From assembly GCA_902469555.1 (NCBI GenBank), contig CABRDB010000031.1, positions 1 to 17,787 of the forward strand: a DNA stretch of 17,787 nt, written 5' to 3'. The first letter of the stretch is position 1; each line of letters opens with the position of its first letter. Made by a program: the position numbers and the translations under genes. Positions 1,115 to 12,411 of the stretch are shown here, in pieces. The stretch comes from an uncultured Collinsella sp. (GTDB lineage: Bacteria > Actinomycetota > Coriobacteriia > Coriobacteriales > Coriobacteriaceae). Under the pieces are notes generated by a model. It was given only the letters and a program-made list of their open reading frames with translations. It ran no database searches and was not told the DNA's origin.

Positions 1115-3253
1115 GTGGAAGTGCTGGTTGTTGGCAATACCGCGTATGTCGATGACGACTTTTGTGCCAAGGCGTTTCCCGGTGACCATGTTCAGGTCGT
1201 GGCGGCCAACGAGGCGCGCCGCGACGGGTCGTCGCTCCATGCGTCTTGGAAAGAGCTGCTGCAGCACCTGGACCAGGCTTACGAATTCGACCGTGTGGTC
1301 TACCTCTCTACCTATCTCACGCCGCATACCGAGGCCGTTGGCGACATCGAGCTGCTGCGCTCCGTCTTTCGAGCTTGCATGGGTCGCCAGATTCAGCTGC
1401 TGTTTGTGACTGGTCCCATGGGAGCGGACGGTGCGGTGGACGTTGCGGGGCAAAACGGCAAGGGCATCATTGCCCGTGCGGCCAACGACCTGTGCCGCTA
1501 CTATGCGGTCCGCGACGGCATTCAGGCCAAGATCTTGCGCGTGCCGTATCTGTACACCGCCTCGCCCACGCTGGAAGACCCGATTTTGACCCCGCTGTTC
1601 GAGGCGTGCTCGCAAGGCTCTGCTGTCATGAGGGCTGGGGCGGACTCACCGCTCGGTGCCCTCTGCGCCGAGGAGCTGGCCGTTCTGGTGCGTCGCATCT
1701 TCGACAGCTGGGATGCCACATTCGAGGAACTCGAGGTTCCGGATAGCTTTGCCCACACCGTGGGAGACCTGGGCGAGGCGCTCAAGGGCTTGTTCCCGGG
1801 GCTCGACATTACCTACGACGGGGACGCCGTCGTCTCCATTGCTCCGAGCGATACCGTCCGCACGCGCTACGGGTGGTTCCAGCGCTATGACGTGCTGCGC
1901 GATCTTTCGACCATACACGCCCGCTGGGAGCAGACCCTCGCGGGCAAGCGCCATCCGCTGCGTGCCGCCATCGACCGCATGCGCGGGCGGACACTGCCCA
2001 TCAAATGCCTGGAGACCGCGCTGGCCTGGGTGCTCTTTGAGGGCCTGGAGCTGGTGTTTTCGCAGTCTGCTCAGCTTAACGTGCTCGACTACCGCCTGCT
2101 GTACGTGGTACTGATCGGCACGCTGTATGGGCTCGATTTTGGCCTGGTTGCGGCGCTGCTGGCGTCGGTGGGTTTGGCCGCGAGCTACTTTACTCAGTAC
2201 GGTTATACCTTCCAGGGTCTCTTTTACGAGCCGTCCAACTGGCTGCCGTTTATTGCGTACTTTGTGGTGGGTGCCGTGTGCGGCTATGTGCAGCTGCGCA
2301 ACAGCGAAGCCATTAGGGCGGAGCGCGATCAAAACGAGCTCGTGCGTAATCGCAATACGTTCCTCACACAGCTTTACCACGACGCGATCGAGGACAAGCG
2401 CGCGTACAGGCGCCAGATTGTGGGTCGCCACGACAGCTTTGGCAAGATCTTTGCCGTGACGCAGGAGCTCGACGTACTCAACCCACGCGACATCTATCGC
2501 AAGTGCTGCGAGCTTCTGGGCGAGATCCTCGAGAACGATTCGGTGGCGATCTACCATGTTTCGGGCGGGGCATTTGCACGCCTGGTGGCAGCAAGTCCCG
2601 CGATTGCCGAAAATGCCGCACGCTCGCTCACGCTTGAGCAGCTTGCACCTCTTTTGGGCGACGGGGGTCGTTCGAACCTGTGGGTGAACCGTGAGCTGAC
2701 GCCGGGGTTTCCCATGTTTGGATACGCGATCGAGCGCGACGGGGCACCCGCCGTGTTGATCTTTGTGCGTAGTGCGGCCGAAAACCAAATGACCCTCTAT
2801 TATCAAAACCTGTTCCGCATCTTGTGCGGGCTGGTCGAAAGCGCGCTGGGCCGTGCCTTTGACTATGAGGCGGTGGCGCAGGATAAACGCTGCGTTGACG
2901 GCACTTGCGTGCTCAAGCAGGCGGCCTTTGGCCAAGAGCTCGCGGCGGAGCAGGCGCTGGCAGATAGCAAGATGGGGAGTTTTTTGCTCCTGCGCGTGGT
3001 ACCGGGCATGGAGCCTGTCGGCGAGCTGGTGGGCGCAATTGGGTCGGCAATCCGCGAGAGCGACGCGGCGGGCTTGGTCGACGGCAACGTGCTCTACCTG
3101 CTTATGCGCCAGGCAAAGGCGTGCGATCTTCCCATTATCCGTAAGCGCCTGAGCGCAAAGCATATTGCGGTGGAGCCCGTCGACGGCGAGGGCATCGTGG
3201 CGCTGCTGCAGCGCATCGCTTACACCGGTGACGGTGAGGGGGGTGCCGCTTGA
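1115..3253 (+). CDS. pelD: PelD-like c-di-GMP receptor with N-terminal SDR-like domain
   Basis: This is the first gene of the operon, 712 residues from GTG 1115. The start was chosen because a strong purine-rich ribosome binding site (1097-1107) precedes it; the upstream in-frame ATGs at 1070 and 1079 lie in the promoter. Domain order: residues 1-265 resemble a degenerate NAD-dependent epimerase (SDR) with the late ILRVPYLYT strand but no clear GxxGxxG or YxxxK; 294-392 hold about four membrane segments; about 395-435 is charged and helical; 440-590 is GAF-like; 605-705 is a degenerate GGDEF domain. In the last, R647-E-S-D650 lies five residues before D656-G-N-V-L in the GGDEF position. So the c-di-GMP inhibitory-site RxxD is kept and the cyclase site is lost, as in Pseudomonas PelD. 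Known PelD binds c-di-GMP and activates Pel synthesis. The SDR fusion makes this longer than Pseudomonas PelD. The stop overlaps the pelE start. Confidence 0.85.
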   Translation: MEVLVVGNTAYVDDDFCAKAFPGDHVQVVAANEARRDGSSLHASWKELLQHLDQAYEFDRVVYLSTYLTPHTEAVGDIELLRSVFRACMGRQIQLLFVTGPMGADGAVDVAGQNGKGIIARAANDLCRYYAVRDGIQAKILRVPYLYTASPTLEDPILTPLFEACSQGSAVMRAGADSPLGALCAEELAVLVRRIFDSWDATFEELEVPDSFAHTVGDLGEALKGLFPGLDITYDGDAVVSIAPSDTVRTRYGWFQRYDVLRDLSTIHARWEQTLAGKRHPLRAAIDRMRGRTLPIKCLETALAWVLFEGLELVFSQSAQLNVLDYRLLYVVLIGTLYGLDFGLVAALLASVGLAASYFTQYGYTFQGLFYEPSNWLPFIAYFVVGAVCGYVQLRNSEAIRAERDQNELVRNRNTFLTQLYHDAIEDKRAYRRQIVGRHDSFGKIFAVTQELDVLNPRDIYRKCCELLGEILENDSVAIYHVSGGAFARLVAASPAIAENAARSLTLEQLAPLLGDGGRSNLWVNRELTPGFPMFGYAIERDGAPAVLIFVRSAAENQMTLYYQNLFRILCGLVESALGRAFDYEAVAQDKRCVDGTCVLKQAAFGQELAAEQALADSKMGSFLLLRVVPGMEPVGELVGAIGSAIRESDAAGLVDGNVLYLLMRQAKACDLPIIRKRLSAKHIAVEPVDGEGIVALLQRIAYTGDGEGGAA

Positions 3254-4155
3254 TCTCGCTTGTCGTTGCTGCCGTCTTGCTGCTGATTCATTCGCTGGTT
3301 TGCCTGATGCTGTGGACGCTCATGAAGCTGGGCCTGCTGCCGGTGCGCGGGCACATGCTGGCTGTAATAGTGCTGGTGCCGCTGTGGGGCCCGTTGCTGG
3401 TGGTTTTGCTATCGGTGCGCAGCGCGGTGCTTGGCGAGTGGCTGAAAGAGTCTGCGCTGGAGTCGCTGCGCTTCAACGACGACCTGCATCGTAGTATGTC
3501 GGTACCGAGCGGTGAGGACGATGCAGGCGTAGTGCCGCTCGAGGAGGCGCTTATCGTCAACGACCCGGCATACCGGCGCCGCCTAATGCTCTCCATGCTC
3601 ACCGAGGAGCCCGACGCGTACCTGGCGCAGCTGCAGGCGGCTAAGCTTAACGACGACGTTGAGGTGGCGCACTATGCCGCGACGGCGGTGGCGCAGATCT
3701 CCAAGGAGTCCGACCTTAAACTGCAGCAGCTGGAGCGTGCCTTTAAGACGGACCCGAGCGCGCAAAACCTCAACGAATACTGTGATTTTCTTGGTGAATA
3801 CTTGGGCTCGGGCTTGGCTGAGGGGCGCGTTGCTCAGATTCAGCGCCAACAGTACGCGCGCCTGCTTGCGCGTCGCTGCGAGCGCGAGGATACCCTTGAG
3901 CTGCGCATTCGATACGCGACGGCGCTGGCCGATGTCGGACAGATCGACGAGGCGCAGGCCGTGACCGACCAGCTGGTACTCGACGTGCCCGAGGAGCAGG
4001 AGGTTTGGATGCTTTGCCTGCGCCTAGCCGTGATGCGCCGCGACGGTGACGAGGTCCACTGTGTGATCGATGCGATTGACAAGCAACGTGTGTATTTGAG
4101 CGCCGACAACCGCGAAAAGTTGGCGTTTTGGCGCGATTGGGAGGAGGCCCGATGA
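3250..4155 (+). CDS. pelE: PelE-like membrane protein with helical-repeat tail
   Basis: A TTG start at 3250 overlaps the pelD stop in the string TTGA, behind a GAGGGGGG-type ribosome binding site. The 301-residue product has two hydrophobic segments (about residues 3-27 and 36-57), then an alpha-helical region to the end. The helical part contains VPLEEALIVNDPAYRRRLMLSML and later TPR-like stretches such as YATALADVGQIDEAQAVTDQL. Two membrane helices followed by tetratricopeptide-like helices is the layout of PelE, an inner-membrane partner of PelD and PelG whose exact role is little known. Sequence similarity alone would be weak. The call rests on architecture plus position between pelD and the pelA-type deacetylase, the order seen in Gram-positive pel clusters. 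It overlaps the next gene by ATGA. Confidence 0.75.
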   Translation: MISLVVAAVLLLIHSLVCLMLWTLMKLGLLPVRGHMLAVIVLVPLWGPLLVVLLSVRSAVLGEWLKESALESLRFNDDLHRSMSVPSGEDDAGVVPLEEALIVNDPAYRRRLMLSMLTEEPDAYLAQLQAAKLNDDVEVAHYAATAVAQISKESDLKLQQLERAFKTDPSAQNLNEYCDFLGEYLGSGLAEGRVAQIQRQQYARLLARRCEREDTLELRIRYATALADVGQIDEAQAVTDQLVLDVPEEQEVWMLCLRLAVMRRDGDEVHCVIDAIDKQRVYLSADNREKLAFWRDWEEAR

Positions 4156-6032
4156 GCGTGGCGCAACATATCCGAGACCGTGTGGGCCGCTTTCGTTGGA
4201 TGGGACTCCTCGTGGTGTGGGCGGTCTTTATTGCCATGGCCGCCGTGCTGCTGGTGGAGCGTGCCGGCGTGCAGTACAGTGCGGGCCAGCATAGGCTGGG
4301 GATGCTTGCCGCCAACGACGCGGTGCCGGCCTCCTCGGCAATCTTTGGCCAAAAGCCCACGTGCCTGGTCATTACAGACTCGGACCAAGATGGCGTCGAC
4401 GACGTCAAAGACCAGTTCGACCAGATTTTGCTGGACATGAAGATCGCCCATCGCGACGTGGATCTTGCCCTGGATGGTGCGGATGCCATTCCCTCGCTGA
4501 CCTCCTTCGATCGCGTGATTTTGCTCATGCCGTCGCTCGATGGGCTCGGTACGCACCTGAGCGACATTATGAGTTGGGTGAGTGTGGGCGGCTCACTCAT
4601 GCTGGGCATGACGCCAGATAACTCGAACTGCCTGCAGGCTATTGCTTCCAAGCTTGGGATCGAATCGGCCGGATATGACTATGCGAAAGCCGAAAGTATC
4701 GTTCCGAGTGAGGACTTTATGCTGGGCGGGGGAGAGCGCTACGAGTTCTCGGATCCCTTCGATTCTTCACTTTCGGTTTCATTGCGCGAAACGGCGCACG
4801 TCTGGGCAAAGACCGGCGATGCGGGCACGCCGCTCATTTGGTCTAACGATTGCGGAAGTGGTCACACCGTGGTGTGCAACATTGGCATCTACGACAAGGT
4901 CATGCGTGGGTTCTATGCTTCTGCCTTAAGCTTGCTGGGTGAAGCCACGGCCTATCCGGTCATCAACAGCGCCGTGTTCTATTTGGACGACTTTCCTAGC
5001 CCTGTGCCCTCGGGCGACGGCACCTACATCAAGCGCGACTACGGGCTTTCCGTCGCCGATTTTTATGTCAAGGTCTGGTGGCCCGATCTGCAAAAGCTTG
5101 CGCAAAAATACGGCATTCGCTATACCGGCGTGATGATCGAAAACTACGAGGACGCGGTCAACCAGACCGAGCCTGCGCGCCAGGCCGATACCACACAGTT
5201 TCGCTACTTTGGCGGCATGCTGCTGCAGATGGGCGGAGAGCTGGGCTTTCACGGCTACAACCATCAGCCTCTGGCGCTCTGGGATACCGACTATGGCACG
5301 CTGTATGACTACAAGACCTGGAAGAACAAGGAAACGCTCGTCGCATCGCTCAACGAGCTTATCGCTTTCCAGGACGAGGTGCTGCCTAATGCGCACGGCT
5401 CGGTCTACGTGCCGCCGTCGAATATCCTTTCGGCCCGTGCGCGCAAGCTTATCAGCACCGACGTTCCGCGCATTAAGACTATTGCCAGTACGTACTTTGA
5501 GGACGGTACCGACCTGCCCTACGTGCAGGAGTTTGGCGTGGCGAGCGATGGTATTGTGGAGCAGCCGCGTATTGTCTCGGGCGGCATGGTCGACGATTCC
5601 TATATGCGCCTGGCTGCCGTGTCCGAGCTCAACATGCACTACGTGAGTACGCACTTTATGCACCCGGACGACCTGCTCGATCCCGATCGCGGCGCCAAGG
5701 AGGGCTGGGAAGTCTACAAGGGAGGCCTGACCGACTACCTGGACTGGCTCACCAAGTCTGCGCCCGACCTGCGCCGCCAGACCGGCTCGGAGTGCTCCGG
5801 TGCCATCCAGCGCTTTTCGTCGGTTACGGTGAGCGTGGATACCAGTGCGGATGCCTGGACGCTCAGCCTGGGCAATTTCCACGACGAGGCGTGGCTCATG
5901 TTCCGCGCCAATAATGGCGAGCCGGGTGCGGTGACGGGTGGCGAACTGACGCACCTTACAGGCAATCTGTATCTGCTCAAGGCAAATGATAAGACCGTGA
6001 CGATCGAGCGCAAGGAGGGTGGCGACAAATGA
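4152..6032 (+). CDS. pelA: PelA-type membrane-anchored polysaccharide deacetylase (DUF2194)
   Basis: The ATG at 4152 overlaps the pelE stop (ATGA) and follows a GAGGAGG site at 4141; the upstream in-frame TTG at 4128 is inside pelE. The 626-residue protein has one N-terminal membrane anchor (about 15-37). A Rossmann-like domain (about 65-260) follows, then a NodB-like deacetylase domain (about 270-515). Visible catalytic motifs are Y277-L-D279-D280 (base and metal aspartates), H367-G-Y-N-H371 (metal HxxxH), V420-P-P and S-T-H501-F-M-H504. A beta-rich tail follows. It lacks the glycoside hydrolase domain of Pseudomonas PelA, matching the deacetylase-only PelA of Gram-positive clusters. The inferred job is removal of acetyl groups from the N-acetylated Pel-like polymer at the outer membrane face. 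An Asp-rich loop (D76-x-D78-x-D80-G) is present early in the Rossmann-like domain. Confidence 0.8.
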   Translation: MSVAQHIRDRVGRFRWMGLLVVWAVFIAMAAVLLVERAGVQYSAGQHRLGMLAANDAVPASSAIFGQKPTCLVITDSDQDGVDDVKDQFDQILLDMKIAHRDVDLALDGADAIPSLTSFDRVILLMPSLDGLGTHLSDIMSWVSVGGSLMLGMTPDNSNCLQAIASKLGIESAGYDYAKAESIVPSEDFMLGGGERYEFSDPFDSSLSVSLRETAHVWAKTGDAGTPLIWSNDCGSGHTVVCNIGIYDKVMRGFYASALSLLGEATAYPVINSAVFYLDDFPSPVPSGDGTYIKRDYGLSVADFYVKVWWPDLQKLAQKYGIRYTGVMIENYEDAVNQTEPARQADTTQFRYFGGMLLQMGGELGFHGYNHQPLALWDTDYGTLYDYKTWKNKETLVASLNELIAFQDEVLPNAHGSVYVPPSNILSARARKLISTDVPRIKTIASTYFEDGTDLPYVQEFGVASDGIVEQPRIVSGGMVDDSYMRLAAVSELNMHYVSTHFMHPDDLLDPDRGAKEGWEVYKGGLTDYLDWLTKSAPDLRRQTGSECSGAIQRFSSVTVSVDTSADAWTLSLGNFHDEAWLMFRANNGEPGAVTGGELTHLTGNLYLLKANDKTVTIERKEGGDK

Positions 6033-7456
6033 GGATCTGCTTGGTACTCGAGGGTTGCTACCCCTATGTGCACGGCGGCGTATCTACCTGGATGCATGGC
6101 TATATCCAGGCCATGCCCGAGCACGAGTTTGTGCTGTGGGTGATCGGCGCGCATGCTGCCGACCGCGGCAAATTTGTCTACGAGCTGCCCGGCAACGTGG
6201 TCGAGGTGCACGAGGTGTTCCTGGACGATGCCCTGCGGCTTTCGGGCGAGCAACATGAAGCCAGTTTTAACGACCGCGAGCGCGAGGCGCTACGCCGCCT
6301 GGTGTCGCTCTCCAATCCGGACTGGGACGTGCTGTTCGATATCTTTCAGCGCCGTCGCGTGCATCCGCTCTCGTTTTTGCAGAGCCGAACGTTTATGGAC
6401 ATCTTCCGCGACGTGTGCCTGGCCGAGTACCCCTACACGCCCTTTGCCGATGCATTCCACACCATGCGCTCCATGTTGCTTCCCGTGCTCTACCTGTTGG
6501 GCGGCGAGGTGCCGGTGGCCGATGTGTACCACGCCATCTCGACCGGCTACGGTGGCCTGCTCGCCTGCCTGGGCTCAAGCGTTTCCCATGCGCCAGTGCT
6601 GCTGACCGAGCACGGCATCTATACCCGCGAGCGCGAGGAAGAGATCATTCGCGCCGATTGGGTGGTGCCGTCGTTTAAGGACCGCTGGATTCGCTTTTTC
6701 TACCTGCTTTCTGAGGAGATCTATCGCCGCGCCTTCCGCGTGACCAGTTTGTTCCATAACGCCCGCAAGACCCAGATCGATATGGGCTGCGATGCGGACA
6801 AATGCCTGGTTATCCCCAACGGCATCCAGTTCGACCGCTTTAAGGATATTCCCTTAAAGACCGAGGACGGCTGGGTGGACATTGGCGCGGTGGTGCGCCT
6901 GGCGCCCATCAAGGATGTCAAGACCATGATTTATGCCTTCTTTGAGCTGCACGAGCGCCTGCCCAAGGTGCGCCTGCACATCATGGGCGGCGTGGACGAC
7001 GAGGAGTACGGCGCCGAGTGCCACGCGCTGGTCGAAACCCTGGGCGTGCGCGACCTGATCTTTACCGGCCGCGTCAACGTGGTCGAGTACATGGAAAAGC
7101 TCGACTTTACCATTTTGACGAGCATCTCCGAGGGCCAGCCGCTTAGCGTGCTGGAGTCGCTTGCAGCGCGCCGTCCCTGCGTGACGACCGAGGTGGGCTG
7201 CTGCCGTGAGCTGCTCGAAGGCGCCCCGGGTGACGACTTTGGCGTGGCGGGTTTTGTGACGCCGTCCATGTATCGCAAGGGCTTGGCCGATGCCATGGAG
7301 CGCATGTGCGTGAGCCGCGCCCGTCGCATTGAGATGGGGGAGCGCGGCCAGCGTCGCGTTGCCACGTACTTCTTGCACGAGCAGATGCTCGCCAACTATC
7401 GCACCCTGTATGACGAGACGGCGCAAGCGTTTGACCTGCCCAGAGAGGGGGAGTAG
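6029..7456 (+). CDS. pelF: PelF-like GT4 glycosyltransferase
   Basis: The ATG at 6029 overlaps the previous stop (ATGA). The product has 475 residues, close to the usual PelF length, with no membrane segment, so it is cytosolic. The N-terminus MRICLVLEGCYPYVHGGVSTWMH contains the glycine loop of a GT-B fold and matches the PelF/DUF3492 N-terminal domain. Further landmarks are H195-G-I-Y-T-R-E-R-E, IPN264-G265-I, and the donor-binding EX7E motif E368-G-Q-P-L-S-V-L-E376 in the Rossmann C-terminal half. PelF is the soluble polymerase of the Pel system and uses a UDP-sugar donor. Here it would act at the membrane complex of PelD, PelE and PelG. This is the most securely identified member of the cluster. 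Confidence 0.92.
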   Translation: MRICLVLEGCYPYVHGGVSTWMHGYIQAMPEHEFVLWVIGAHAADRGKFVYELPGNVVEVHEVFLDDALRLSGEQHEASFNDREREALRRLVSLSNPDWDVLFDIFQRRRVHPLSFLQSRTFMDIFRDVCLAEYPYTPFADAFHTMRSMLLPVLYLLGGEVPVADVYHAISTGYGGLLACLGSSVSHAPVLLTEHGIYTREREEEIIRADWVVPSFKDRWIRFFYLLSEEIYRRAFRVTSLFHNARKTQIDMGCDADKCLVIPNGIQFDRFKDIPLKTEDGWVDIGAVVRLAPIKDVKTMIYAFFELHERLPKVRLHIMGGVDDEEYGAECHALVETLGVRDLIFTGRVNVVEYMEKLDFTILTSISEGQPLSVLESLAARRPCVTTEVGCCRELLEGAPGDDFGVAGFVTPSMYRKGLADAMERMCVSRARRIEMGERGQRRVATYFLHEQMLANYRTLYDETAQAFDLPREGE

Positions 7457-7459
7457 CCG

Positions 7460-9004
7460 GTGGCCGGAATTGGTTTTGAGCTCAAGCGCCTGTTTAGGCG
7501 CAAGGGCCTGTTTGCCACGATGCGCGCTTACGGCTACGCCGGCATTGTGTGCACGGGTCCCATGCTGTTGGGCGTGCTACTCCAGGTGGGTATCTTGGTG
7601 CTGTGCGGTCTGTGGGGTGTGGGCCGTGCCAACCAGGATCTGCTGGTGTGTATGGTGACCTACACACTGCTGGCCTCGCTTTTGCTCACGAGTTTTTTCT
7701 CTATGCCGGTCACGCGCTTTTTGGCCGATATGCTGTTTGCCGAGCGCGAGGACGAGATTCTGCCTTCGTTTTGGGGCTCCAACGCTATCATGCTCGTTGC
7801 GGGCACGGTGCTCTACGGTGTCTTTCTGCTGTTCTCGGGCGTCACACTGCTGCAGGGTCTGCTGTGCCTGTGGCTGTTCAACATTATGATTGTCAACTGG
7901 AACGGCATGAGCTACCTCACGGCCATCAAGGATTACCGTGGCATTCTGTGCAGCTTTGCGGCCGCCATTGGCGTGGCGTGCTTGTGCGCCCTGGCCGCGC
8001 TGGCACTGGGGCTGCCGCCGGTCGAGGGCCTGTTGGCGTCAATTGCCCTGGGCTACGGCGTCATGCTCGTCTGTGACGTGGTGCTGCTGTACCGGTATTT
8101 TCCTCAGAGCGACCGCAGCCCCTGGCCCTTTTTGCAGTGGGTCGATCAGTTTATGCCGCTGGCGCTCACGGGTCTGTTAACCAATCTGGGACTCTTTGCA
8201 CACCTGGTGATTATTTGGGCTGGTCCCATTGGCGTGCGGGTCAAGGGCTTGTTTTATGGTGCGCCCTACTACGATGTGCCGGCGCTCATCGCGTTTTTGA
8301 CGATCCTGGTCACGACCGTCAACTTTGTGGTCTCGGTCGAGGTCAACTTCTATCCGCGCTACCGCGACTACTACAGCCTGTTCAATGACGGCGGCGTGGT
8401 AGGCGACATTGTGGTGGCCGAGGAGGAGATGCTCTCCACGCTTAACAGCGAGCTGCGCTTTTGTGCGCTCAAGCAGCTGTTTGTGACCGCGGCGGTCATT
8501 TCGCTCGAGACCACGGTGCTGTCGGCCCTACCGTTGGGCTTTAACAACCTTATGCACGGGTATTTTCGCACGCTGTGCGTGGGCTATGGCCTGTATGCCG
8601 TGGGTAATACGGTGATGCTTATCTTGCTGTACTTTACCGACTATAAGGGGGCCGTGCTGGCTTCGGGCCTGTTTGCCGGTGTGGCCGGGCTGGCGACTGC
8701 CGTTTCGTTGCTTTTGCCGCAGCAGTTTTTCGGCTTTGGTTTTTTGTTGGGTGCGGCGGTGTTTTTTATCGTGGCGCTGCTGCGGCTCGATACCTATACC
8801 GCCAACTTGCCGTATCGTATCCTGAGCCAGCAGCCCATTGTGGCGACCGACAAGACGGGTCGCTTTACACAGCTGGGCCGCTTGCTCGACCGTGCCGAAC
8901 AGCGCTATGAGGAAGGCCGACATAAGGGCGTGCCGCACGGCGCGTTTGAGCGCGCAGTAGCTCGCGTGTATCGCAAGCATTGGGGAGGTTCTGATGACCG
9001 ATAG
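7460..9004 (+). CDS. pelG: PelG-like polytopic membrane transporter
   Basis: The GTG at 7460 lies three bases after the pelF stop, with AGAGGGGGAG upstream. The 514-residue product starts MAGIGFELKRLFRRKGLFATMRAYGYAG, the characteristic PelG opening, and contains about twelve hydrophobic segments to about residue 455. PelG belongs to the MATE/MVF-like superfamily and is thought to move the Pel polymer across the membrane together with PelD and PelE. The last 60 residues or so are polar, include TQLGRLLDRAEQRYEEG, and form a cytosolic tail beyond the last membrane helix, making the protein somewhat longer than the Pseudomonas protein. It overlaps the next gene by 11 bases, so the CotH-family gene is translationally coupled to it. 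Confidence 0.9.
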   Translation: MAGIGFELKRLFRRKGLFATMRAYGYAGIVCTGPMLLGVLLQVGILVLCGLWGVGRANQDLLVCMVTYTLLASLLLTSFFSMPVTRFLADMLFAEREDEILPSFWGSNAIMLVAGTVLYGVFLLFSGVTLLQGLLCLWLFNIMIVNWNGMSYLTAIKDYRGILCSFAAAIGVACLCALAALALGLPPVEGLLASIALGYGVMLVCDVVLLYRYFPQSDRSPWPFLQWVDQFMPLALTGLLTNLGLFAHLVIIWAGPIGVRVKGLFYGAPYYDVPALIAFLTILVTTVNFVVSVEVNFYPRYRDYYSLFNDGGVVGDIVVAEEEMLSTLNSELRFCALKQLFVTAAVISLETTVLSALPLGFNNLMHGYFRTLCVGYGLYAVGNTVMLILLYFTDYKGAVLASGLFAGVAGLATAVSLLLPQQFFGFGFLLGAAVFFIVALLRLDTYTANLPYRILSQQPIVATDKTGRFTQLGRLLDRAEQRYEEGRHKGVPHGAFERAVARVYRKHWGGSDDR

Positions 9005-10763
9005 GATGATGTCTCGCCGCTGCCTGATCGAGGCGGCTGCCGGCGCGCTGTTGCTTTCGGGCTGTTCGTCTCAGGACGAATCCTCGACTAAAAAGGTCAA
9101 AAAGCAGGACAAGATTAAAAAGGCCGATTCCTCGGACGGTACCAAGCATCTGCGCGATAAGGATGAGCTGTACGAGGTCTACGACGACTCGGGCATTGTG
9201 ACCATGTACCTGACGGTCTCGCGTGGCAACAGCTCCGAGAACACTGATCATAGCTGGGCCGAGATCAACACGTACTCGGTGTATGACTATGCCGACATGG
9301 GCGTGACGCGCTATCAGGTTATGGGCCTGCTGCAGCCGGGCGACGAAGACGGCCCGGTGGCCGGCGAGGTTGGCTATGGCGAGGAAGCGCCCAATGCCAC
9401 CGTGCAGGTGCGCGGTCAGACATCGAGCATGAACTCGCAAAAGAATTACAAGGTGGAGCTCAAAAAGGGCAAGGGTACTTGGCACCAACAGCGCGCGATT
9501 GCGCTCAACAAGCACATGGGCGAGGGTATGCGTTTTCGCAACAAGATGGCCTATGACCTTATCCGTGGGATTCCCCAGATGATGGGTCTGCGCACGCAGT
9601 TTGTGCATCTGTGGGTGTGCGACCAGACCGAAAAGACCAACGACACCTTTGAGGACTACGGCCTATTTACGCAGGTGGAGCAGCTCAACAAGACGGCGCT
9701 TAAGGCACATGGCCTGGATAAGAGCGGGCACCTGTACAAGGTGAACAGCTTTGATTTCCATCGCTACGAGGACACCATTAAGCTCGCCGACGATCCCGAC
9801 TACAACCAGGCTAAATTTGAGGGCATGCTCGAGATTAAGGGCGATTCGGACCACACCAAGCTCATCGAGATGCTCGATGCGCTCAACGACGAATCGCAAA
9901 AGATCGACGACGTGCTCGGCACCTACTTTGATACCGAAAATCTGGTCTATTGGCTGGCGTTTCAGATCCTGACGGGCAACTGCGATACGCAGAACCGTAA
10001 CTGCTATCTGTACAGCCCGCTCAACTCAAATACCTGGTACTTTTTAGATTGGGATAACGACGGCATGCTGCGTAAGCTGGAGCTTTCTCTTACCGGGTTT
10101 TCGGACTACGCGAGCTGGGAGCGCGGCGCAAGTAACTACTGGGGCAACGTGCTGTTTAACCGCGCGTTGCGCAGCAAGTCGTTCCGCAGCGAACTCGACC
10201 GTGCCGTCAAGGACTTGCGCTCGTATATGACCGAGGCACGCTTGAGCAAGATGATCAAGCACTACCGCGATGTGACTGAATCCCTGGTCTTTGCTTCGCC
10301 CGATATCGACAATCTGCCTGTCACTAAGGACCAATACGAGCAGATCGCCGCGGCGATTCCCTCCGAGATCGAGGAGAACTACAAGAGCTTTCGTGAGAGT
10401 TTTAAAAAGCCCATGCCGTTCTACATCGGCGTGCCGCAGATCGATAACGGTAAGCTGCGTATTAATTGGGATGCGTCCTACGACTTTGAGGCGCGCGACA
10501 TTCGCTACACCGTAGAGCTTGCGCGCGACTATGCCATAAGCGACGTGGTCTTTAAGGCCGAGGACGTGCTGCTTCCCGAGGTGACCTGCGATGCGCCCGA
10601 TACCGGCCAGTATTTTGTTCGCGTGCGTGCCACCAACTCCGACGGCCATACGCAAGATGCGTTTGACTACTATGTAACCGACGACGGCAAGCACTACGGC
10701 ATGAAGTGTTTTTACGTGCAAGGCGGCGGTAAGGTCGTGGAGGACACGTATGAGGAGGGCTAG
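8994..10763 (+). CDS. CotH-kinase family lipoprotein
   Basis: The ATG at 8994 is chosen over ATGs at 9006 and 9009 because GGGGAGG lies five bases upstream. The 589-residue product begins MTDRMMSRRCLIEAAAGALLLSGC, a lipoprotein signal with lipobox LSGC and lipidated Cys24, so it is predicted to sit on the outer face of the membrane. The CotH fold (PF08757) is visible as V-R-G-Q-T-S-S followed by QKNYKVEL, WLAFQILTGNCD331TQNRN336, and YFLD352WD354ND356, the aspartate-rich metal motif. A beta-sandwich, fibronectin-like domain (about residues 475-575) ends the protein. CotH of Bacillus spores is a secreted atypical protein kinase. The substrate here is unknown; a protein or the exopolysaccharide are both possible. 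It overlaps pelG at the 5' end and the VTC gene at the 3' end. Confidence 0.85.
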   Translation: MTDRMMSRRCLIEAAAGALLLSGCSSQDESSTKKVKKQDKIKKADSSDGTKHLRDKDELYEVYDDSGIVTMYLTVSRGNSSENTDHSWAEINTYSVYDYADMGVTRYQVMGLLQPGDEDGPVAGEVGYGEEAPNATVQVRGQTSSMNSQKNYKVELKKGKGTWHQQRAIALNKHMGEGMRFRNKMAYDLIRGIPQMMGLRTQFVHLWVCDQTEKTNDTFEDYGLFTQVEQLNKTALKAHGLDKSGHLYKVNSFDFHRYEDTIKLADDPDYNQAKFEGMLEIKGDSDHTKLIEMLDALNDESQKIDDVLGTYFDTENLVYWLAFQILTGNCDTQNRNCYLYSPLNSNTWYFLDWDNDGMLRKLELSLTGFSDYASWERGASNYWGNVLFNRALRSKSFRSELDRAVKDLRSYMTEARLSKMIKHYRDVTESLVFASPDIDNLPVTKDQYEQIAAAIPSEIEENYKSFRESFKKPMPFYIGVPQIDNGKLRINWDASYDFEARDIRYTVELARDYAISDVVFKAEDVLLPEVTCDAPDTGQYFVRVRATNSDGHTQDAFDYYVTDDGKHYGMKCFYVQGGGKVVEDTYEEG

Positions 10764-11541
10764 CGCGCTGCTTGAGCGCTTGGCGGCCCCGCCTATGCGT
10801 GTCACGCAGGAGCGTTGCCGCCACGAGCTCAAATATCTCATTAACGAGGGCGAGCACGCCGCGCTTGCCTGTCGCATGGCGCCGGTGTTTAAGCTGGACA
10901 AGCATGCGCGGGCAGGCGGTTACACCATTCGCAGCCTGTACTTTGACGACTACTGCAACTCGGCCTACGAGGAAAAAGGCGCCGGTATTCTCATGCGCAA
11001 AAAGTATCGCGTGCGCATCTATAACGGCAGCGACAAGGTGATTAAGCTCGAGCGCAAAAAGAAGTACGGCAGCTGGATCTACAAGGAGGACGCGCCGCTC
11101 ACGCGCTGCGAGTTTGAGCAGATTCTGGCCGGCGACTACGGCTTTTTGCTGAGGAGCCCCTATCCGCTCTGCCGCGAGTTCTACATCGAGTGCATCTGCA
11201 ACATGATGCGCCCGCGGACCATCGTGGACTACGAGCGCGAGCCGTGGGTGATGGACGAGGGCACCGTGCGCGTTACGTTTGACATGAACGTGCGTGCCGC
11301 GGTGGGAAGCTTCGATATCTTTGACGCGACGCTGCCCGCGCTGCCGGTCCTGGAGCCCGGCAAGCTGGTGATGGAGGTCAAGTTTACGGAGTTTTGCCCG
11401 CAGCTGGTGCGCGATATGGTGCCGCCGGGAGCGGCCGAGCTTACGGCGGTCTCCAAGTACTGCCTGTGTTACGAAAAGACCGCCTACCTGCGCGGTTTTA
11501 ACTATTGGGAATCGGATTTTGAGAACCGAGGGGATATTTAG
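10750..11541 (+). CDS. VTC-domain (polyphosphate polymerase-like) protein
   Basis: The ATG at 10750 overlaps the CotH-family gene by 14 bases, with GGAGG at 10739-10743. The 263-residue soluble protein carries the landmarks of the VTC domain (PF09359), a triphosphate-tunnel fold: R24-H-E-L-K28-Y, I-R61-S-L-Y-F-D66-D, R83-K-K-Y-R87-V-R89-I-Y, K99-L-E101-R-K103, V-D-Y-E-R-E-P-W, R-V-T-F-D, L-V-M-E-V-K-F and S-K-Y-C-L. The alternating basic and acidic pairs that line the tunnel are kept, so a phosphate- or nucleotide-binding catalytic role is plausible. In yeast Vtc4 the domain makes polyphosphate from ATP. For bacterial VTC proteins beside CotH and DUF4956 genes the reaction is not established. 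No membrane segment is seen, so it is likely held at the membrane by the DUF4956 partner. Confidence 0.88.
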   Translation: MRRASALLERLAAPPMRVTQERCRHELKYLINEGEHAALACRMAPVFKLDKHARAGGYTIRSLYFDDYCNSAYEEKGAGILMRKKYRVRIYNGSDKVIKLERKKKYGSWIYKEDAPLTRCEFEQILAGDYGFLLRSPYPLCREFYIECICNMMRPRTIVDYEREPWVMDEGTVRVTFDMNVRAAVGSFDIFDATLPALPVLEPGKLVMEVKFTEFCPQLVRDMVPPGAAELTAVSKYCLCYEKTAYLRGFNYWESDFENRGDI

Positions 11542-11544
11542 ACC

Positions 11545-12210
11545 ATGAGCACCAGGGACTTTTTTAAGAACTCCGTCTTGGAGGCGTTTGGCCAGGTCGA
11601 CCCTGCCAAGATTGGCCTTTCGCTGCTCGTGGCGCTCGCCATGGGCATCCTGATCTATTACGTGTACAAGCGCTTTTTTACCGGTGTGGTGTATTCGCGC
11701 AGCTTTGCCGTGACACTCGTGGGCATGTGCGTGCTTACCTGCATGGTCACGCTCGCGATTTCGACCAACGTGGTCATCTCGCTCGGTATGGTCGGTGCTC
11801 TGTCAATCGTCCGCTATCGTACGGCGGTTAAGGACCCGCTCGACCTGCTGTATCTTTTTTGGGCCATTACCACAGGCATTACGGCAGGCGCCGGCATGTA
11901 CGCGCTCGTGGGGCTTACGGCAGTGGTGATTGTGGTGATGATTGCCGGCTTTGCGAGCCACCAGGACAAGGCGCGCGTGTACATGATGGTCATTCACTAC
12001 ACGGGCCAGACCACCGGCGACGATATCGTTCGCGCGTTTGGGCGCACCAAGTTTACCGTCAAGTCCAAGACCATGCGCGGCGACAAGGTCGAGATGGCCG
12101 TGGAGGTGTTCTCGGACGGCGTTGACATGCCCTATGCGGACGCCATTCGCGCGCTCGATGGCGTGGAGGACCTGACGCTCATCCAGTACAACGGCGAGTA
12201 CCACGGCTAA
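11545..12210 (+). CDS. DUF4956 membrane protein
   Basis: The ATG at 11545 lies three bases after the VTC gene stop, with CGAGGGGA upstream. The 221-residue product has about four membrane segments (around residues 24-45, 52-74, 76-92 and 105-138) and a cytosolic C-terminal domain of about 80 residues. The central motif GMVGALSIVRYRTAVKDP (residues 81-98, with R90 and R92) and the LFWAITTGITAGAG that follows are the hallmark of DUF4956 (PF16316). Family members are repeatedly found beside VTC-domain and CotH genes, so a membrane complex with the VTC protein is likely, comparable in outline to the yeast VTC complex. Function is unknown. This is the last gene of the operon; no strong terminator follows. 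Confidence 0.88.
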   Translation: MSTRDFFKNSVLEAFGQVDPAKIGLSLLVALAMGILIYYVYKRFFTGVVYSRSFAVTLVGMCVLTCMVTLAISTNVVISLGMVGALSIVRYRTAVKDPLDLLYLFWAITTGITAGAGMYALVGLTAVVIVVMIAGFASHQDKARVYMMVIHYTGQTTGDDIVRAFGRTKFTVKSKTMRGDKVEMAVEVFSDGVDMPYADAIRALDGVEDLTLIQYNGEYHG

Positions 12211-12411
12211 CTTTGTCCCGCGTTTTAACAAACGCCGGACCGCTCGACGCTGCGCGGGCATCTGCCGGGCGATCTGCCGCTCAAACCGTCGCTCGCGTAC
12301 ATAAAGTACGCTTCGCTCCTCTTTCGCGGCACCTCGCCACGGCAGCTGCCCGCTCGCTGGCGTATGCTCGACCTGGGTGGGCCGATTTGGTTCGTATGCC
12401 GTCTTCACGGG
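12211..12411. other. GC-rich structured gap after the operon
   Basis: This gap carries no credible gene. It shows GCGTTT/AAACGC at 12220-12235 (four-base loop), an imperfect direct repeat GGGCATCTGCCG / GGCGATCTGCCG at 12256-12279, and GCGTAC/GTACGC at 12295-12311 (five-base loop) set in CGCTCGCGTAC...GTACGCTTCGCT. None ends in a T-run, so none is a standard terminator. The pattern suggests a structured dispersed element or the remains of one. Confidence 0.35.

Follow-up and report, generated by a model that had tools for sequence, protein, structure and literature searches.

Extended Pel operons of Gram-positive bacteria

Operons in which genes for a CotH-family protein, a poly-phosphate polymerase (PPP; here VTC) and a DUF4956 protein are contiguous with the Pel exopolysaccharide genes pelDEADAFG have been described from streptococci and clostridia and, there with a diguanylate cyclase/phosphodiesterase (DGC/PDE), in the same arrangement from bifidobacteria (PMC7112168, 2020). 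According to its main text this trio co-occurs with an extra epimerase-like (degenerate SDR) domain of PelD, and a phosphorylation role is proposed for CotH. In S. intermedius each gene of the cluster has been deleted (PMC12345266, 2025): Pel depends on pelDEAFG, loss of SIR_1594 (CotH) leaves less Pel, aggregation falls upon loss of either SIR_1594 or SIR_1592, to below half in one medium but never to zero, and no change was seen upon loss of the glycoside hydrolase SIR_1591. We equate SIR_1592 with DUF4956 because of the gene order and the membrane plus ACT architecture described for it, the name DUF4956 being absent from the accessible text of that paper, which also states that the trio occurs only at Pel loci. 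Here we analyze an operon of this kind in a stretch of 17,787 nucleotides from an uncultured Collinsella sp. (contig CABRDB010000031.1; hereafter the window), and compare its three additional genes with their relatives elsewhere.

Eight co-directional genes on the forward strand, delineated from the list of open reading frames (ORFs) and the junction sequences, occupy positions 1115-12210 of the window:

1115..3253, + strand, pelD; GTG start after a GGGGAGGGGGAG stretch, reading frame open from 1070
3250..4155, + strand, pelE; 4-base overlap with pelD
4152..6032, + strand, pelA; 4-base overlap with pelE, ATGA junction with GGGAGGAGG upstream
6029..7456, + strand, pelF; 4-base overlap with pelA
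7460..9004, + strand, pelG; 3-base gap after pelF
8994..10763, + strand, CotH; 11-base overlap with pelG
10750..11541, + strand, VTC; 14-base overlap with CotH
11545..12210, + strand, DUF4956; 3-base gap after VTC

These are the genes, in the same order, of the published pelDEADAFG-cotH-PPP-DUF4956 operons (PMC7112168; S. intermedius SIR_1594-1592, PMC12345266), and as far as those are described in the accessible text the window also shares with them the degenerate SDR domain of PelD and a deacetylase-only PelA. A preliminary description of the window had given the eight genes with coordinates and spacings that are exact to the base, and with family names that agree with Pfam and with the NCBIfam PelF model. 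The coupled operon that it pointed out is real in the window, but is already published (PMC7112168, in the text accessible) and is not a discovery here. The main text of PMC7112168 makes no mention of Collinsella, and the window extends the known carriers of Pel with the trio to the Coriobacteriia, which are common in the human gut. The wider comparison outweighs the window itself, as it removes the published premise of a Pel-only trio.

Portability of the trio and its surface partner

The comparison covered 112 loci, namely 32 from whole genomes and 80 named records picked by similarity to several DUF4956 types, with two duplicate pairs among them; their genes were labeled with strict and then with domain-limited home-made profiles. 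At 30 of the 112 loci CotH, VTC and DUF4956 occur together while PelA, PelF and PelG are all missing, in a view that extends 7 kb or more to either side of DUF4956. Three of the 30 (L029, L030 and L049, with some genes of L029 and L030 broken) belong or are related to the second operon type described below. The trio is therefore not dedicated to Pel, contrary to the statement in the accessible text of PMC12345266. In the set of 80 named loci, VTC and DUF4956 are direct neighbors at 78. CotH lies within 4.5 kb at 54 loci and the Cthe_2159 family (PF14262) at 14; the remaining 12 have neither, several being cut by contig ends.

DUF4956 is present in 146 of 291 Clostridia genomes. From the best-scoring matches listed, 80 places were chosen by distance from the contig start, a non-random set in which some genomes are repeated. 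VTC is adjacent to DUF4956 in 78 of them, and in another at a distance of 1.8 kb; within 4.5 kb there is CotH in 32, Cthe_2159 in 33 and neither in 15, and the neighbors scanned at these last 15 (5 proteins) are ordinary genes. Pel was seen at one of the 80 places, an underestimate given the lower Pfam scores of Pel-linked copies, and at nine a GT2 synthase is accompanied by a HEAT protein. All 10 synthase-linked loci have CotH as partner, as against 22 of the 55 other partnered loci (p 4e-4, in this hand-picked set); with near-copies removed the counts are 8 of 8 against 22 CotH and 28 Cthe_2159 (n=50; p 0.005, kinship beyond near-copies being uncorrected). Thus, VTC and DUF4956 form a near-constant pair, while the surface partner is either CotH or Cthe_2159.

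PelG scores above its cut-off in 11 of the 291 Clostridia genomes, and the trio directly follows pelG in 5 of these; in one CotH is followed by the contig end, and another is cut by a contig end. In three trio-less Clostridia Pel operons (L221, L224, L226) a stretch of about 2.7-3.1 kb lies between pelE and pelA.

PelG was found in 11 of 43 Collinsella genomes, CotH in 12 and DUF4956 in 13, and a class-wide draw recovered PelG above cut-off in 3 of 119 genomes, all three Collinsella. By coordinates, CotH adjoins PelG in all 11 PelG-bearing Collinsella genomes and DUF4956 then follows in 10 of them, so that the pelG-CotH-DUF4956 adjacency in this genus is more than chance. Across Actinomycetota DUF4956 occurs in 25 of 246 genomes. 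In one Collinsella genome, G095, the Pel locus (L031) has two additional ORFs between pelF and pelG, at 6665-9011.

PelG-CotH fusions

Among 28 PelG ORFs of the examined loci, four (L071, L092, L116, L117) continue in one frame into a CotH domain, as judged with Pfam, giving fusion proteins of 1035-1088 aa. Three come from Paenibacillus and group together, while the fourth, from Claveliimonas bilis, lies elsewhere on the tree, and if all are real they represent two fusion events. By eye no clear ribosome site is seen ahead of the fusion junctions; ATG or GTG codons in frame are present there. The two parts are separated by a run of hydrophobic residues that ends with a lipobox-like cysteine, so that cleavage after synthesis is possible. 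The fusions are a physical coupling and offer a direct handle on the role of CotH; no relevant report of them was among the matches listed in a literature search, with most subscription journals outside it. L071 has an additional CotH gene after its fusion, and tandem CotH genes occur at L074, L075 and L077.

A second operon type with a PgaC-like synthase

The gene order VTC-DUF4956-CotH-740 aa-HEAT-GT2 recurs at nine Clostridia loci (seven without near-copies; L183, L187, L196, L201, L203, L204, L205, L207, L208) and at the Coriobacteriaceae loci L030 and L049, often together with an EAL-domain protein. The GT2 protein of L183 is nearest to PgaC/IcaA, with 160.7 bits, which is below the cut-off of 422. 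The 740-aa protein is present at all nine of these Clostridia loci and at none of the other 71; three members gave no Pfam match, and modeling points to a likeness to GH157 glycoside hydrolases that is only weak to moderate because the model is poor (mean predicted local distance difference test score, pLDDT, 59.5). An EAL protein accompanies 6 of the nine loci as against 1 of 71 others (5 of 7 with near-copies removed, p 8e-6), and a single-sequence search found a separate GGDEF protein at none of the nine and at 7 of 71 others. Hence the link of this operon to cyclic di-GMP (c-di-GMP) rests on the EAL proteins and the Coriobacteriaceae loci: in G019 the sole GGDEF match of the genome adjoins the second operon, and in G022 and G095 a GGDEF gene stands beside theirs. 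Besides its Pel locus G095 carries a further module, which is linked to GT2 and has an interrupted CotH frame.

A polysaccharide deacetylase did not hold up as a general part of this operon. It was found at 1 of the nine Clostridia loci, where 1 of the other 71 also has one, and in addition at L030, whose ORF is deacetylase-like; L208 encodes a deacetylase that carries S-layer domains.

A similar gene group is listed for NELoc-2 of C. perfringens (PMC2879425), which contains VTC, a 222/226-aa neighbor there named tubulin/FtsZ, and CotH. This group is not next to Pel: its neighbors are a HEAT protein and one of 685 aa, and the locus also includes an ORF for a chitin synthase (PMC2879425). Its gene order looks like that of the second operon on a comparison of names and sizes only. 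Beyond the NELoc-2 gene lists, no description of this operon as a unit was found in the literature. Its existence means that the question raised by the Pel operon can be asked a second time, independently.

Evolutionary history of the module

A first tree was built from VTC and DUF4956 domains set side by side (99 rows). All Pel rows fall within one group of 32 rows that also holds four partnerless rows and two with CotH only; three rows of the group (L067, L068, L076) are cut by contig ends. In a second tree, of 84 rows with the partnerless ones excluded, the 25 Pel rows form one group with support 94, slightly below the star threshold, and the 11 GT2 rows form a separate group with support 99, which additionally takes in the contig-edge row L216. 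Constraining Pel and GT2 rows together was rejected (p 2e-44, in a test chosen after viewing the tree). The module was apparently acquired once by Pel and, separately, by the PgaC-like synthase operon. On an 86-row tree CotH and Cthe_2159 exchange at least five times, four of these changes being forced by well-supported branches, which makes the VTC-DUF4956 pair the constant core and the surface partner swappable. The distribution suggests that the three additional genes form a portable kit, which in many cases occurs where Pel is absent.

The CotH, VTC and DUF4956 proteins

CotH of the window belongs to a kinase-like family (226 bits, above the Pfam cut-off) and begins with a lipoprotein-type signal with the lipobox LSGC; a crude motif search of 31 Pel-linked CotH genes places a lipobox-like motif ahead of the CotH domain in 22. 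D331 and D354, which we take to be catalytic, are conserved in 71 of 72 and 72 of 72 sequences, respectively. Both align with aspartates of the Bacillus cereus CotH structure 5jd9. Three loci (L051, L053, L054) combine VTC-DUF4956 with a very large CotH protein of 1230-1288 aa; at these and at L055 the pair stands beside several genes matching an early, loose PelF profile.

VTC of the window is a triphosphate-tunnel protein (104 bits, above the Pfam cut-off) in which R24, K28, R87, R89, E101, K103, K112, R163, R174, E209, K211 and K236, presumably catalytic, are retained in 97 of 97 sequences. In an alignment with Vtc4 of yeast, of the eukaryotic VTC complex (PDB 3g3q, 8i6v), the same twelve residues are identical; K85 is likewise kept in 97 of 97, yet absent from Vtc4. 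A simple hydropathy analysis of the VTC ORF from the near-identical Collinsella loci L059 and L060 found no membrane helix, unlike in Vtc4, and in the bacterial system the membrane part lies on a separate protein, DUF4956.

DUF4956 of the window (44 bits, above the Pfam cut-off) is predicted to combine membrane helices with an ACT-like domain (model mean pLDDT 80), and its R90 and R92 are invariant in 108 of 108 sequences. Matches in a fold search cover the C-terminal ACT-like part only; among the matches listed none is Vtc1-like, which is uninformative either way. By sequence, solved structures gave only two chance-level matches (E above 1), and Pfam gave no MgtC match at E 0.001, the membrane part having been barely probed.

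The Pel proteins

PelD of the window has an N-terminal degenerate SDR/epimerase-like domain, membrane helices of the DUF4118-like type (27.9 bits, slightly under the Pfam cut-off of 28.4) and a C-terminal degenerate GGDEF domain. SDR proteins carry a glycine motif, which the N-terminal domain lacks in an alignment judged by eye. This matches the published description of the domain as degenerate. As a single sequence PelD had no PelD match among solved structures, and an alignment of PelDs recovered epimerases as the best 60 of 180 matches. A RESD motif (RxxD; R662 and D665, numbering from the 1070 start), whose R and D are retained in 14 of 15 aligned PelDs, occupies what we take to be the c-di-GMP I-site. 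Its presence at this position makes c-di-GMP control plausible, unlike in streptococci, and PelD is plausibly a c-di-GMP receptor via this retained I-site. All 12 genomes tested, of which 10 have PelG, encode GGDEF proteins. Relative to the streptococcal PelD as described in the accessible sources, that of the window retains the degenerate GGDEF domain and the I-site. The pelDEADAFG operon of Bacillus cereus (PMC7112168) has, by the same description, the core Pel genes and the degenerate GGDEF domain of PelD as in the window, whereas the SDR domain and the trio belong to the extended class.

PelE combines a hydrophobic N-terminus with TPR-like repeats (TPR_19, 23.3 bits, slightly under the Pfam cut-off of 25); its position is the same in related operons and a home-made profile agrees. 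PelA is of the deacetylase type only, with DUF2194 (572 bits, above the Pfam cut-off) spanning residues 34-616 of 634 aa (translated from 4128), and matches the solved structure 9zau (E 3e-60). PelF contains DUF3492 (270 bits) and a GT4 glycosyltransferase domain, both above Pfam cut-offs, and passes the NCBIfam PelF equivalog with 321 bits against a cut-off of 100. PelG is a membrane exporter (PF16933, 459.7 bits, cut-off 29).

A functional model and its alternatives

Our reading of the window, which we favor tentatively and place somewhat short of probable, is that of a Gram-positive Pel operon of the extended class in which CotH acts at the Pel exit while VTC and DUF4956 make and export a phosphate chain. 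PelD, PelE, PelF and PelG would make and export a polymer rich in N-acetylgalactosamine, which PelA would deacetylate. The CotH lipoprotein, outside the membrane, would act where the polymer exits PelG, and modify the polymer or a cell-anchoring protein, most likely by phosphoryl transfer. Cytosolic VTC and membrane-bound DUF4956, the latter with its ACT-like sensor, might be a pair building the phosphate chain from a nucleotide and passing it outward, where it could serve as a phosphate source for CotH or as a counter-ion for the polymer. Gene content, gene order, the fusions and residue conservation are direct observations on the genomes; we infer the kinase activity of CotH in this operon and the identity of its target, as well as the making and export of polyphosphate. 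Export of a phosphate chain fits the features of VTC, DUF4956 and CotH and the expected absence of ATP outside the cell.

Several observations weigh against this model. In the accessible text of PMC12345266 no change is stated for loss of SIR_1593 (polyphosphate polymerase domain, VTC), and loss of SIR_1592 results in more Pel with lower aggregation, from which it follows that the trio is not one linear pathway. In 33 of the 55 synthase-free partnered Clostridia loci the partner is Cthe_2159, a family of carbohydrate-binding proteins rather than kinases. A PPK1-family polyphosphate kinase is encoded in 40 of 43 Collinsella genomes, so that VTC is dispensable for polyphosphate as such; VTC as the sole polyphosphate enzyme of Collinsella is rejected on the same count. 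Because VTC loss has no stated effect, Cthe_2159 can take the place of CotH and PPK1 is present, our confidence in phosphate-chain export is low. Furthermore, 4 of the 11 PelG-bearing Clostridia genomes lack the trio beside Pel; the Pel locus L073 has VTC and DUF4956 without CotH; L031 has PelG, CotH and VTC without DUF4956, none being found in 1 kb searched around the end of VTC; L079 and L080, of the Pel lineage, have long flanks without Pel or CotH; and no biochemistry of a bacterial VTC-DUF4956 pair was found in the literature searched, with most subscription journals outside. At L079 an HD-domain gene precedes VTC.

The main rival to the export model sees in VTC-DUF4956 a cytosolic sensor of phosphate or nucleotide, in which the tunnel, MgtC-like membrane and ACT-like domains restrain Pel output and no polymer is made. 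We regard it as doubtful: retention of the twelve Vtc4-shared residues throughout exceeds the need of a binding-only domain, and loss of VTC alone is without reported phenotype in the accessible text of PMC12345266. A regulation of Pel synthesis by CotH through phosphorylation of a Pel protein, as proposed in PMC7112168, is unlikely. Deletion of CotH does lower Pel (PMC12345266, in the text accessible), and the PelG-CotH fusions place both together, but CotH, given its lipoprotein-type signal, should sit outside the cell and could reach only PelA or the outer PelG loops, whereas PelD and PelF should have their regulatory parts on the inside. That the trio is an independent envelope module merely sharing the pel promoter is very improbable, for despite its occurrence without Pel the fusions and the single Pel-linked lineage speak against it, and the deletion effects of CotH and of the DUF4956 counterpart on Pel reported in the accessible text of PMC12345266 weaken it.

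The preliminary description had proposed that Pel and the trio form a single system, an idea that an occurrence beside pel in this strain only would have overturned. This is not what is seen, as the trio is found beside Pel in other Collinsella, in Clostridia and in Bacilli; this conserved order, the four fusions and the deletions available from PMC12345266 support the proposal, although a trio that occurs without Pel is not dedicated to it. Its further idea, a transfer of phosphate to the polymer or to an anchoring protein, is less certain in view of the VTC deletion and the Cthe_2159 partners. More broadly, VTC-DUF4956 might be a bacterial phosphate-chain synthase and exporter supplying CotH with high-energy phosphate outside the membrane, where no ATP is expected, and thereby a portable kit for extracytoplasmic phosphorylation taken up at least twice, by Pel and by the operon with the PgaC-like GT2, HEAT and glycosidase-like proteins, which in Pel is tethered or fused to PelG and phosphorylates the polymer or anchor on exit. 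This generalization we consider distinctly unlikely; if true, export of a phosphate chain would explain the phosphate supply of secreted bacterial kinase-like proteins outside the cell. No paper joining a CotH kinase with an exopolysaccharide was found, with most subscription journals outside the search.

Genomic surroundings and additional observations

One promoter-like site on the forward strand lies directly upstream of pelD and none in the intergenic positions of the operon, promoter- and terminator-like sites being no more frequent across the region than expected by chance. An Rfam scan of the window up to E 1 gave no match at all, and so no riboswitch upstream of pelD. A 22-base inverted repeat upstream of pelD (708-729 / 821-842, 86% complementary, 91 bases apart) also has no Rfam match. 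The upstream neighbor of the operon is a divergent gene with an AlbA_2 domain. Downstream of DUF4956, a 166-base gap precedes a LacI regulator, a phosphotransferase system EIIBC component and a GH32 protein, which form a separate sugar-use cluster; in contrast to the published extended operons as far as described, no DUF4832 or PDE-DGC gene follows. The spacer at 12240-12380 contains the palindrome-like CGTACATAAAGTACG, and a 20-base pattern around it was not found in 230 fetched loci. At 6171-10636 of L072 (Eisenbergiella porci) PelA and PelF share a frame and another combines part of PelG with DUF4956, in what looks like an internal deletion. The window is placed in Collinsella by the 99% identity of its DUF4956 to that of L061 (uncultured Collinsella), by P0060 (Collinsella sp.), 98% identical over 73% of DUF4956, and by related genomes.

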